Source: Candidatus Parvarchaeota archaeon
GTDB taxonomy: Archaea; Nanobdellota; Nanobdellia; JAFCGN01
DNA: 42,662 nt
Direction: 5' to 3'
Assembly (NCBI GenBank): GCA_017608045.1
Contig: JAFCGN010000006.1
Location: 1-42,662, forward strand
Shown: positions 20,241 through 30,265 of the stretch, piece after piece
Layout: the number at the start of each line of letters is the position of its first letter
Position numbering within the stretch: position 1 is the first letter of the stretch
Notes under the pieces: generated by a model
Databases searched by the model: none
Told to the model about the DNA's origin: nothing
Seen by the model: only the letters and a program-made list of their open reading frames with translations
Made by a program: the position numbers and the translations under genes

Positions 20241-20308
20241 ATTTATACAAAACCAATTACGTATTAATAAAAATTATTAATTTTTTGATAAAAAAATAAG
20301 ATTTAAAA

Positions 20309-20336
20309 GGGAGTGCAGCTGTATGCTGGCACTCCC
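20309..20336 (-). terminator. hairpin followed by T-tract downstream of ftsZ
   Basis: Minus: gggagtgc-cagcatacagct-gcactccc then ttttaaatc; 8-bp GC-rich stem with extra agc/gct pairing. Confidence 0.5.
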
Positions 20337-20388
20337 CTAGAAATTGTGGGTGGTTGTTTTTCTCATTATTTTTTAAGAATGATTTTTT

Positions 20389-21459
20389 TTATCTTATCAT
20401 CTCTATTCCAAGCTCTTCATTAAGCGTTGTTGCATGAAAATTCTCCTGTTTTCTCACTGGTCCCAAAATATAAGGGGATTTCACACCTGCAATAATAGTC
20501 ATTATGCTTATCTTTCCATTCATTTCATCTGTTATCCTAGCCCCCCAGATTACTTGCGAAGAGCTATCAAGAGACTGCGTTATAAGTTCACCAATTTGAT
20601 TGACTTCATCAAGAGTCATATCTTCTCCACCAGTAATGTGAATCAGTGCGCCTGTTGCTCCTTCATATGAAACATCAAGCAATGGATTGCTTAAAGCTCT
20701 TCTTACTGCTTCTTGAACCCTATTCTCGCTATCACTGTCACCAATACCTATTGTGCAAACACCGCCGTTTTTCATAATTGCTCTTACGTCTGCAAAATCT
20801 AAATTAACCAAAGAAGGTATTGCAATTGTTTCAACAATGCCTTTTATCATTGTAGCAATTAATTCATTCGCTACAGCGAATGCTTGTTGAAGTGGCAAGT
20901 TCCCTGCAATTTGAACTAACCTATTATTGTCAATAACAATAACGCTGTCGCATACTTCTCTTAATTTAGCCAAACCAATTTCTGCCTTGTCTATCCTCGC
21001 TTTCTCTATGTTAAAAGGCATTGTTACTGTTCCAATAACTATCGCTCCTTTGTCTTTTGCCATTTCAGCCACAACAGGAGCAGAACCTGTTCCTGTTCCT
21101 CCACCAAGACCTGCGCAGACAAAAACCATGTCAGAATCTTTAAGAGCTTCCTTTATCTCGTTTTGGCTTTCTCTTGCTGCTGCTTCTCCAACTTCTGGAA
21201 AACCTCCAGCTCCAAGACCCTTTGTTATTTCTTTACCAATAAGAATTTTTTTATCTGCACTTCTCGCATCAAGATGTTGTTTGTCAGTATTAATTGCTAT
21301 AATTTCTGCACCCTTTACGCCTTTATGATAAAGCCAATCAGCCATATTATTACCGCCACCCCCACAACCCACAACAGTAATATTTGCTTGCCCCAAAAGT
21401 CCTTGTTCAAAATTCAAATTTTGGGTATTTTTTAATGCATTTTGAATTATGAAATCCAT
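20389..21459 (-). CDS. ftsZ: cell division protein FtsZ
   Basis: GCGGGGNNMADWL, AGLGGGTGTGSAPVVAE, NLDFADVRAIMKNGG. Confidence 0.96.
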   Translation of the reverse strand: MDFIIQNALKNTQNLNFEQGLLGQANITVVGCGGGGNNMADWLYHKGVKGAEIIAINTDKQHLDARSADKKILIGKEITKGLGAGGFPEVGEAAARESQNEIKEALKDSDMVFVCAGLGGGTGTGSAPVVAEMAKDKGAIVIGTVTMPFNIEKARIDKAEIGLAKLREVCDSVIVIDNNRLVQIAGNLPLQQAFAVANELIATMIKGIVETIAIPSLVNLDFADVRAIMKNGGVCTIGIGDSDSENRVQEAVRRALSNPLLDVSYEGATGALIHITGGEDMTLDEVNQIGELITQSLDSSSQVIWGARITDEMNGKISIMTIIAGVKSPYILGPVRKQENFHATTLNEELGIEMIR

Positions 21460-26731: not shown

Positions 26732-26804
26732 AGTCCCGTCGTCTAGCGGTCAAGGATACCTGCCTTTGGAGCAGGTGACCCAGGTTCGAATCCTGGCGGG
26801 ACTA
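26732..26804 (+). tRNA. tRNA-Gln (anticodon TTG)
   Basis: AGTCCCG TC GTCT AGCGGTCAAGG ATAC CTGCC.. TTTGGAGCAGG..CCAGG TTCGAAT CCTGG CGGGACT A; loop CTTTGGA gives TTG; A1-U72 pair. Confidence 0.95.
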
Positions 26805-27134
26805 CTTTTTCTTAAATCTCTTTTTTTGTGGAAATTGAACTTTTCTATCAAGTGCATACCTTTCAATATCACCAAGAATTTCATCAATAATATATTGCGG
26901 TTGAAACCCTATTGACTTAAATGTTTCATTAAGTTTTTTGCTTCTTAATTTAATTGTTATTTCTATCTTACCATCATGCTCTTCAGAGGGGTGTATGTTT
27001 TTAAAACGACATTTTATTTCACTAAGACCTTCAAATAAGTTTTTCAACCTTTGTGTTTTATCCATTATTTTTTGTTGAACAATTTTAAACTCAAAATTAT
27101 CAATACGTTCGCCAGAAAAAGAAAGCTTTGTCAT
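26802..27134 (-). CDS. hypothetical small basic protein (possible HPF/S30AE-like fold, uncertain)
   Basis: 110 aa, alternating charged beta-strand pattern (KIEITIKLRSKKLNE), basic tail; TAG stop lies inside the tRNA-Gln 3' end. Confidence 0.65.
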   Translation of the reverse strand: MTKLSFSGERIDNFEFKIVQQKIMDKTQRLKNLFEGLSEIKCRFKNIHPSEEHDGKIEITIKLRSKKLNETFKSIGFQPQYIIDEILGDIERYALDRKVQFPQKKRFKKK

Positions 27135-27260
27135 ATATTATTTTAGAGCATTGATTATTATTAAGATTTTTTAATATGTTTTACAACAAAAAAAATTAGG
27201 AAAAATAAACTAAAAACAACACTTAAAAACTCCAAATGATTAAGTATAATCTACTCTTTT

Positions 27261-27369
27261 AAGAAGGAAAGGGTGCGAAAACCTAACAAAAACGATTTTT
27301 TCGGAAGTCGTTTTTGCAATGCCTCTCAGGGAAACTTGATTGGCTGGTTCGCAAGACTCTTTTCTTTTT
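27261..27369 (+). ncRNA. candidate structured ncRNA, three-way junction, family unknown
   Basis: P1 13+6 bp (27261-27279 with 27348-27369), P2 caaaaacga/tcgtttttg, P3 gcc-tc-tcagg-GAAA-cttga-tt-ggc; G-U pairs are viable only on +; T-rich 3' end; no ORF. Confidence 0.6.
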
Positions 27370-27454
27370 ATTTTTAACAACATAATTAATAATAAGAAAT
27401 AAATGCAAAAAAATTTGTAAAAAGGTTCTTTTTTTAATTTTCCTGTATTCTGTT

Positions 27455-27682
27455 TTATAATTCTCTTAATGCTTCTATAAGAAATGCTTTCAATTCTGGA
27501 TTGTCAGGCAAGCCCACTCCTCCTTTATATCTTTTATTTTCTTGTTGGTCATAAAATCCCTTACTTATTTGCAGAAATTCATTTTCATTTTCAACATCAA
27601 CAACTTTTTTTCTGCTTATTTCAACAAAGTTGTTCCTTCCATATTTAAATTCTTTTGATTCTATTGTTTCAAATTTAACTAT
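27455..27682 (-). CDS. small conserved-looking protein (75 aa), probable ATA start
   Basis: In-frame stop tga then ttt aaa ATA; RBS aggtgat; IVKFETIESKEFKYGRNNFVEISRKKVVDVENENEFLQISKGFYDQQENKRYKGGVGLPDNPELKAFLIEALREL*; no ATG/GTG/TTG in the first two thirds. Confidence 0.6.
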   Translation of the reverse strand: MVKFETIESKEFKYGRNNFVEISRKKVVDVENENEFLQISKGFYDQQENKRYKGGVGLPDNPELKAFLIEALREL

Positions 27683-27755
27683 TTTAAATCACCTTTGCGT
27701 ATTTTTGTGAATTATTAATAAAATAATAGCACTTTCTTGTTTTCAACTTTGCGGT

Positions 27756-28274
27756 TTAAATTTTTTCTGAAATAATTTTAATAAAGGACTTAAGAACTGC
27801 CTTGCTCTTTAATTCAAACATGTCTTTTGCTCCGCTCGTAACAATTATTCTTGTTTTATTGGTATTAGCAATTTTAATATTTTGCATCATTCTTCCAAGA
27901 ATTAAGCATCTCTCAAAATTTTTTGGCGGGTTTAATAAAAGATTAAAATTAACAACATAAGCCACGTCCTTTTCTTTCATAAATTTAGCAAGCACGTCAT
28001 CAAGTCCTGCTCTTCGAAAATGCGTGAAATCTTGTTTAGGGTGTAATTCAATATTAATTAAACCATTGACTAATTTATTTTCAACTGCAAACCTGTTTAA
28101 TTTGTAATTAATAGAACTCAAAAAAACAACCTTATTTTTTAATGATTTCATTTTATTCTTTAATTCCTTAATATCTTTTGCTTCAATTATTTCTGCCTCT
28201 TCAATTTCAAGCTTTAATTTTTTAGCAAAATGCAAGACATTACTTGTTATTTTTCCAAAAAAATAATCTTTCAT
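27756..28274 (-). CDS. RNase P protein component 3 (p30)
   Basis: INIELHPKQDFTHFRRAGLDDVLAKFMKEKDVAYVVNFNLLL, TSGAKDMFELKS pattern of Rpp1/p30. Confidence 0.82.
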   Translation of the reverse strand: MKDYFFGKITSNVLHFAKKLKLEIEEAEIIEAKDIKELKNKMKSLKNKVVFLSSINYKLNRFAVENKLVNGLINIELHPKQDFTHFRRAGLDDVLAKFMKEKDVAYVVNFNLLLNPPKNFERCLILGRMMQNIKIANTNKTRIIVTSGAKDMFELKSKAVLKSFIKIISEKI

Positions 28275-28321: not shown

Positions 28322-30265
28322 ATGAAAAAATTAATAACATATTTTTTGCTTCTAATTTCGTTTAATGCTGTTTTTAGTGTTGAAATATATTACCCTCCTA
28401 AAACAATTTTTACAAACATGAATTATTCTTGGAATGGCAAAATAAAAGTCACAGACAAGATATGGAATATTAACATAATCTCAAATTATGTTCCAGAAAA
28501 TTGCACTAACATAATCTCAAATTTTGACTATTTTGGGTATGATGAAAATGGAAATTTTGCTCAAAAAAATTTAAGCAGCGCAGAGAATGATATTGATTTA
28601 TATCTTTCATGTAATTTAAGATTAAAGAATAATATAACTTTTTTGAAAAAAAATCCTCTTTTTCCAGAAAATATTAATAATTCGTATCTTAATGAAACCG
28701 AAAAAGTAATTATTAACAAAGAAATTAAAACATTAGCTTCTGAAATAACTGATGGAACAAACACAACATTAGAAGCATGTGCTAAAATTGCAAGTTGGGT
28801 GCACACTAACATAAATTATACAAAAAGTGATGAAGCATATGATTATGTTAATGAAATCCTAAATAGCACAACAATTTTAAAAAGAAGAAGAGGAGTTTGC
28901 GATGAATTCAGCACCTTGTTTTTATCATTAACTCGAGCAGTTGGAATTCCTTCAAGATATGTAGCAGGATTTTCTTTAAACCAAAATTCAAGTGCTCCAC
29001 ACGCGTGGGCACAAGCATTAATTGGTGATCAATGGATTGATTTTGACCCAACATATGGAGAATATGGTTTTGTTGATGCAACTCATATCGCAACATATTT
29101 TTCAAAAACCCCTTCTTTTAATCCTTATAAAATAACTTTTTCAACAAGGAAAGGCAAAGCCACAATTATTGAACCCAACACGAGTGTTAAGGTTTTATCT
29201 TATGAAAATGATACTCAAAACCTGATTAAAATAAATGCGCATTTTGATAAAAAAAAGGCAGGGGAAAATGAATACATAATCTTAAACATAAATGCAGAAA
29301 ACCTTCTTAACTCGCATGTTCTCACAACAATGGAAATCCTTTATAATAAAAACTTGCTTCAACTTGTAAAAGGGAGTACGAACGAGTATCTTTACATCCC
29401 TCCATTAAAAAATTCAACAAAATATTTTATTTTTAAAACAACAAACAATCTAAAAAAAGGGTATTATTATCCAACAAAAACAAAAATTATAACTTTTGGC
29501 AGTAAAGACGCTGAAGCAAGTATTGATGTTTATCCTGAAATAGGGAAACAAACATTAGAAGAAGCTCTTTCAAAAATAAGTCTTGAGGAATTAAAATATA
29601 GAACGGGTTTAGAAATAAAGAATATTTCCATAACGCCAAGAATATCTTATGAGAATAACATGTTTTATTTGTCTTTTTACATAAAAAACACAGGAAACAA
29701 GATTTTAGATAATTTTAAAATTAATATTTCTTATTCAAACATAACAAAAACAATAATAATACCAAGGATTTTAATAAATGAACAATTTTTAGTAAATGAG
29801 AGTCTAATTACACCAAAAAATGGAGAACATAAATTAATAATCTCTTTTTTAACAGATAAAAATTATTTTTACACAACTAGTTTAATAAAAGCAGAAGAAC
29901 CTCATTTAGATTTAAAATATGTGGGGAATACAACATTTTATAATTATGAGCCAATTAATTTTAGTTTAAAAATTGAAGGGAAATGTGAAAACAAAAAAAT
30001 AGTATTAAGTTCTGACATTTGCAAAAAAATCTTTTTTCCTCAAAATAACACAATTAACCCAACTTTTAAATATTATGAAACAAAACCAAAAAACATTACA
30101 ATCTACGCAAGTATTTCTTGCATTGACAAGTATGGCACGGAATTTAAAAAAAACAAAATTTTTTATCTAAACAGGGAAGCAAACAATTTTGCAGCAATCA
30201 AGATAAGATTATCATACTTTATTAACAGCATAAAAAACTTTTTAAACACATTAATTTACAAATAA
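28322..30265 (+). CDS. secreted transglutaminase-like domain protein
   Basis: Signal peptide MKKLITYFLLLISFNAVFS; RRRGVCDEFSTLFLSLTRAVGIPSRYVAGFS...HAWAQALIGDQWIDFDPTYGE (Cys-His-Asp); Ig-like C-terminus. Confidence 0.88.
   Translation: MKKLITYFLLLISFNAVFSVEIYYPPKTIFTNMNYSWNGKIKVTDKIWNINIISNYVPENCTNIISNFDYFGYDENGNFAQKNLSSAENDIDLYLSCNLRLKNNITFLKKNPLFPENINNSYLNETEKVIINKEIKTLASEITDGTNTTLEACAKIASWVHTNINYTKSDEAYDYVNEILNSTTILKRRRGVCDEFSTLFLSLTRAVGIPSRYVAGFSLNQNSSAPHAWAQALIGDQWIDFDPTYGEYGFVDATHIATYFSKTPSFNPYKITFSTRKGKATIIEPNTSVKVLSYENDTQNLIKINAHFDKKKAGENEYIILNINAENLLNSHVLTTMEILYNKNLLQLVKGSTNEYLYIPPLKNSTKYFIFKTTNNLKKGYYYPTKTKIITFGSKDAEASIDVYPEIGKQTLEEALSKISLEELKYRTGLEIKNISITPRISYENNMFYLSFYIKNTGNKILDNFKINISYSNITKTIIIPRILINEQFLVNESLITPKNGEHKLIISFLTDKNYFYTTSLIKAEEPHLDLKYVGNTTFYNYEPINFSLKIEGKCENKKIVLSSDICKKIFFPQNNTINPTFKYYETKPKNITIYASISCIDKYGTEFKKNKIFYLNREANNFAAIKIRLSYFINSIKNFLNTLIYK

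Follow-up and report, generated by a model that had tools for sequence, protein, structure and literature searches.

In archaea, the tRNA-splicing endonuclease EndA cuts bulge-helix-bulge (BHB) motifs in pre-rRNA and in tRNAs, yielding circles, and in Haloferax one BHB of an mRNA leader is also cut (PMC7714728). Some archaeal enzymes accept relaxed forms of the motif; the enzyme of A. fulgidus, by contrast, requires bulges of strictly 3 nt (PMC12397907). We compared with these systems an intergenic element of ~115 nt at positions 27257-27371 on the + strand of the window (the whole stretch of DNA that was analysed, 42,662 nt from a Candidatus Parvarchaeota archaeon). The element resembles the BHB stems of archaeal 16S and 23S pre-rRNA in having a long terminal helix with opposed bulges and a 4-bp helix, in the same polarity, that encloses a structured RNA. 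In contrast to those stems, the enclosed core is an orphan RNA and not rRNA, and the bulges of the minimum-energy (MFE) fold are 2 + 3 instead of 3 + 2 nt. BHB-excised circles such as those of tRNA introns and the HVO_1309 5′ UTR (PMC7714728) are likewise short RNAs bordered by a BHB, the excision of the element being predicted, but here the gene is free-standing, and neither tRNA nor mRNA exons adjoin it.

The + strand of the element has a three-way-junction fold that is conserved through compensatory changes; it is single copy in its genome, non-coding and without a known family. We consider it very probable, from the sequence comparisons below, that 27257-27371 is a selected + strand RNA. 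Our full explanation, to which we give a probability of about 75%, is a free-standing, genus-restricted structural non-coding RNA (ncRNA) gene of the scaffold type.

Fold of the element and comparison with known RNA classes

The + strand of 27257-27371 folds into a three-way junction of −44.3 kcal/mol. Compared with 500 dinucleotide shuffles, none of which was equally stable, its z-score is −6.3; for the longer interval 27240-27390 the + strand still gives −5.8, with the − strand clearly weaker. When all 115-nt windows across 774,884 bases of the genome were scanned, the element ranked first of 77,005 in stability given G+C content, above tRNA and rRNA pieces. The − strand of the element reaches a z-score of only −2.1 to −2.7, in agreement with an earlier proposal that the G-U pairs give the fold a + strand polarity.

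All of the main helices lie within the minimum-energy fold. The outer helix, P1a, pairs 27261-27273 with 27357-27369. It continues into a central 4-bp helix of UGCG (27274-27277) with CGCA (27350-27353), for which GCGA is the alternative register of the 5′ strand, and then into an inner helix of AACC (27280-27283) with GGUU (27346-27349). Bulge 1, AA at 27278-27279, is present in the MFE fold of both species examined and shifts its position with the register; bulge 2 is AGA at 27354-27356, or AAG in the alternative register. Two hairpins are enclosed. P2 (27287-27316) has 13 bp, 27287-27299 with 27304-27316, and a UUCG tetraloop at 27300-27303, while P3 (27321-27344) reads GCC-UC-UCAGG-GAAA-CUUGA-UU-GGC and has a 2x2 internal loop and a GAAA tetraloop of the GNRA type. 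The preliminary description of this locus had the outer 13-bp stem, the TGCGAA/TTCGCA inner stem and the whole of P3 right. It was also right about the helix caaaaacga/tcgtttttg, which it took for a stem of 9 bp closing a 12-nt loop; this helix is in fact part of the 13-bp P2 with its tetraloop. Its single aga bulge in P1 exists, but not alone, as the AA bulge lies on the 5′ strand and AGA/AAG on the 3′ strand.

In length (~115 nt), three-way junction and long terminal stem the element is like 5S rRNA (RF00001), but it has no match to the 5S profile. Size and shape of this kind speak for a strongly diverged housekeeping RNA (5S, SRP, RNase P or guide RNA). This explanation is largely refuted and we give it almost no credence, since canonical 5S, SRP and RNase P RNAs are found elsewhere and there is no Rfam match at the locus. 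The only 5S match in the genome, of 72.1 bits, is at C17:190330-190444; it is a normal 5S gene, and the idea that the element replaces a missing 5S was dropped. Archaeal SRP RNA and RNase P RNA (RF01857, RF00373) were matched on contigs C12 and C17 and not here, and the 16S gene also lies elsewhere in the genome. A search of Rfam 15 gave no family at the gathering cut-off in either species, the best scores being 20.1 and 20.2 bits where the cut-offs lie at 54 and 46.4. Among the best sub-threshold scores in both species, far below the cut-offs, were LOOT RNA (RF03000) and the PyrR site (RF00515); LOOT RNA is a chain of hairpins, whereas the element is an enclosed three-way junction.

We also looked for the signatures of individual classes. 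There is no CTGANGA of hammerhead ribozymes on either strand in either species, and the GAAA seen here is a hairpin loop. No RTGATGA of C/D box guides occurs on either strand in either species. An ACA lies 3′ of the stem in the window copy, while the + strand of the copy in the second species has none, and no K-turn, K-loop or pseudouridylation pocket was seen in the fold by eye. The earlier statement that no RNase P, SRP, 5S, C/D or H/ACA signature was seen agrees with these results, the C/D boxes being absent and the ACA not conserved. Y RNAs have a long bulged terminal stem and a U-rich 3′ side, in which the element is similar to the RNAs of Ro60 particles; this idea was rejected, as no TROVE/Ro60 protein is encoded in the 92.5% complete genome.

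Conservation in the congener and distribution

One homolog of the RNA was found, at G001:C40:35126-35252(-) in ‘Candidatus Parvarchaeota archaeon’ Meg22_1214_Bin_175, the only congener examined, where the surrounding gene order is alike. In ungapped alignment the two copies are 86.0% identical over the RNA and 91.6% over the core, compared with 58.8%, 63.9% and 62.5% for the adjoining pieces of spacer. The congener copy adopts the same fold with a z-score of −5.6. Nine substitutions fall at paired sites and none of them breaks a pair. Two pairs of P1a are changed on both sides, from A-U to G-C and from G-U to U-A; P2 carries two compatible changes and P3 one, and in the congener a C-G pair closes the P2 loop, which reads CUCG. 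When substitutions of the same types are placed at random, zero broken pairs are obtained with P = 2.8e-4, a value for which P1 was aligned by hand so as to agree with the fold, giving the congener a bulge of 1 nt. A shuffle control on pair counts (243/500) is uninformative with two sequences, and covariation is thin because only two sequences exist. A syntenic homolog with compensatory changes in a related genome, as the preliminary description had asked for, is nevertheless at hand.

The changes are informative about the strand. Those on one side of a pair (GU to AU, CG to UG and GC to GU) leave the bases paired only if the + strand is read, which again bears out the proposed polarity. A small ORF of 47 aa on the − strand loses its frame in the congener through an indel of 2 nt; consequently the element is not coding and this candidate was rejected. 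The same pattern bears on the view that the locus is a DNA-level feature, such as a transcription terminator or a transposon remnant, with no functional RNA. A long inverted repeat that runs into T-rich DNA, with a convergent gene on the 3′ side, would suit that view. We find it highly improbable, because the sequence is single copy and too elaborate for a terminator, and because the junction and hairpins are conserved above the spacers and their changes obey the G-U pairing of the + strand.

A further alternative is that the element is a base-pairing small RNA, antisense or guide. Small free-standing RNAs commonly act in this way, the genome encodes an LSM protein, and a U-rich tail is present in the window copy. 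However, no conserved seed is exposed: the arms end in tetraloops, the P2-P3 linker differs in sequence and length between the species, and the congener has lost the U-rich character of the tail. C/D boxes are absent and the + strand of the congener has no ACA box. A base-pairing role is therefore improbable in our view. We favour protein binding over antisense pairing, given the lack of a seed, the tetraloop-capped arms and the conserved junction bulges. The RNA would be a protein-binding scaffold rather than a cis switch or a regulator that acts by base pairing, since the conserved bases lie nearly all in helices, tetraloops and junction bulges, no conserved single-stranded seed is exposed and no gene follows on the same strand.

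Covariance models searched over 378 genomes of the class and 377 of the phylum (overlapping samples) gave no further members. All matches elsewhere scored ≤25 bits and were chance-like. The best distant match, in genome G052, was rejected since it overlaps an open frame (judged by eye), has lost part of P3 and scores 20 bits with the refined model. The loci around 21 homologs of the neighbouring 77-aa protein contained no model match, nor did the 673 kb searched of the third genome of the order, in which the RNase P p30-like gene stands beside proteasome- and exosome-type genes. A scan of genome contigs for the DNA pattern of the core gave a sole match, on the congener contig JAFCEQ010000006.1. 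Four pattern matches on viral contigs were rejected because they do not fold like the element, and BLAST against phages and plasmids returned no match. As far as the genomes examined go, the RNA appears to be confined to one Parvarchaeota genus. The suggestion of a new archaeal ncRNA class holds in that the RNA is unannotated and falls into no known class, but it is narrow in scope, comprising one single-copy RNA in two species of one genus.

Gene context and predicted transcription

Both genes flanking the RNA are on the − strand. On the 5′ side lies 26802-27134 (−), which encodes a 110-aa orphan protein without a Pfam family, confined to this genus among 92 genomes. On the 3′ side, and convergent with the RNA, lies 27455-27688 (−), a conserved 77-aa ORF that is 99% identical in the congener and 32-49% identical in 21 other genomes of the class. 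It has no Pfam family and no ATG, GTG or TTG start; GGTGATT...ATA-GTT-AAA is found in both species, suggesting an ATA start. The next gene, 27756-28274 (−), is RNase P p30-like with a weak Pfam match. The order in this genus is thus p30, 77-aa ORF, the RNA, 110-aa ORF and tRNA-Gln, while in the order's other family (L177) genes of the proteasome and exosome type come after p30. Among the nine neighbouring proteins, from 23.6 to 32.1 kb, there is no TnpB or reverse transcriptase that would indicate an omega RNA, a retron or a DGR RNA.

With a box-A matrix trained on 34 tRNA upstream regions, the best-scoring site is AACACTTAAAAA at 27218-27229 (+), 43 nt upstream of P1, and in the congener it occupies the same position. 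Its score of 5.6 bits is expected by chance in ~7% of cases for a 13-position interval in AT-rich DNA, making it a modest promoter site. Tentatively, a tRNA-type box A of its own, at ~27218, would drive transcription of the RNA, and tRNA-like spacing places the start at ~27255. The T-rich tail noted earlier is present in the window copy at 27360-27379 (+), running along the 3′ side of P1a and beyond it, and is less T-rich in the congener; it is a possible transcription end, and the predicted transcript ending there would be ~115-125 nt. The 110-aa gene has a separate promoter-like site on the − strand at 27179-27168, between itself and the RNA, which is weaker in the congener. Since this gene has its own − strand site, the RNA and the 110-aa gene look divergent.

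A role as a cis element of the − strand, serving the 110-aa gene as a leader or the 77-aa gene as a trailer, would fit the orientation of both neighbours, and the − strand does fold somewhat better than its shuffles (z-scores of −2.7 and −3.5). The + strand is far more stable (−6.3 and −5.6), though, the G-U pairs and single-sided changes pair only there, and the promoter-like site at 27179-27168 separates the 110-aa gene from the RNA. We judge a − strand cis element to be very improbable. On the + strand the next gene begins only at 28322, ~950 nt downstream, apart from short ORFs that overlap − strand genes. This speaks against a leader or riboswitch, and a cis-regulatory role is not supported, both neighbours being on the other strand.

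The opposed bulges of the outer stem

The P1 bulges lie on opposite strands, each immediately 3′ of its strand of the 4-bp helix (UGCG/CGCA or GCGA/UCGC). This is the polarity of archaeal BHB splicing-endonuclease sites; it is found in the MFE fold of both species, and the motif bases are identical in the two copies. Among 7,261 structured windows of the genome, a loose BHB pattern occurs at no more than 7 distinct loci (10 windows) and the mirror-image arrangement in 18 windows. The MFE bulges are 2 + 3 nt and not the canonical 3 + 3; the 3-4-3 form costs 1.7 kcal/mol. In the genome's own 16S processing stem (L112, 15961 onward with 17596 onward) the corresponding elements are AUA, GGUG/CACC and AA, a layout in the MFE fold of 3 nt, 4-5 bp and 2 nt. 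The 23S gene was not located by an exact motif search, and the comparison of rRNA stems covers 16S.

EndA is encoded at L096:4303-4869(-). The protein of 189 aa was found by phmmer with an EndA query and confirmed by Pfam (PF01974, E 1.1e-29; PF02778, E 1.3e-16). It has one N and one C domain, and a single subunit of this size points to the stricter homotetramer type. An enzyme of apparently stricter type weighs against cleavage of the P1 motif. If the opposed bulges do form a BHB that the tRNA-splicing endonuclease cuts, as with pre-16S rRNA, cleavage of both bulges after the second nucleotide would release the P2/P3 core (~27280-27355, 76 nt) as a circle. By analogy with the known substrates such an excision is possible but doubtful. 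The fuller model, a gene in a DPANN archaeon dedicated to a BHB-excised circular ncRNA, in which the outer stem is a processing cassette for EndA, the 76-nt core is joined by ligation into a stable circle and this circle is the functional RNA of a genus-specific ribonucleoprotein, we consider unlikely on balance. Were the BHB reading true, this archaeon would make a dedicated free-standing circular RNA with its rRNA/tRNA splicing machinery, and the RNA would offer a concrete substrate for tests of EndA specificity in this lineage.

As a separate observation, six tRNA genes have predicted introns of 12-35 nt (L083:18154, L084:5573, L094:6642, L112:6664, L113:7469 and L119:8757); their folds contain no clear canonical BHBs, although EndA is of small single-subunit size.

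We believe that a strong orphan RNA maintained by selection in a ~0.8-Mb genome deserves experimental work, since our literature searches turned up no published study of Parvarchaeota ncRNAs. Other structured hairpins were also noted in this genome. A strong hairpin, GGGAGTGC...GCACTCCC, lies at 20281-20395 just past the stop of an ftsZ-like gene (20389-21459, −) and is possibly a terminator or a binding site. At L100:9430-9590 (G000:C11, +) a very stable hairpin, CTCTCGCCTGTTCTTT...AAAGAACGGGCGGGAG, ranks with the most structured windows of the genome.
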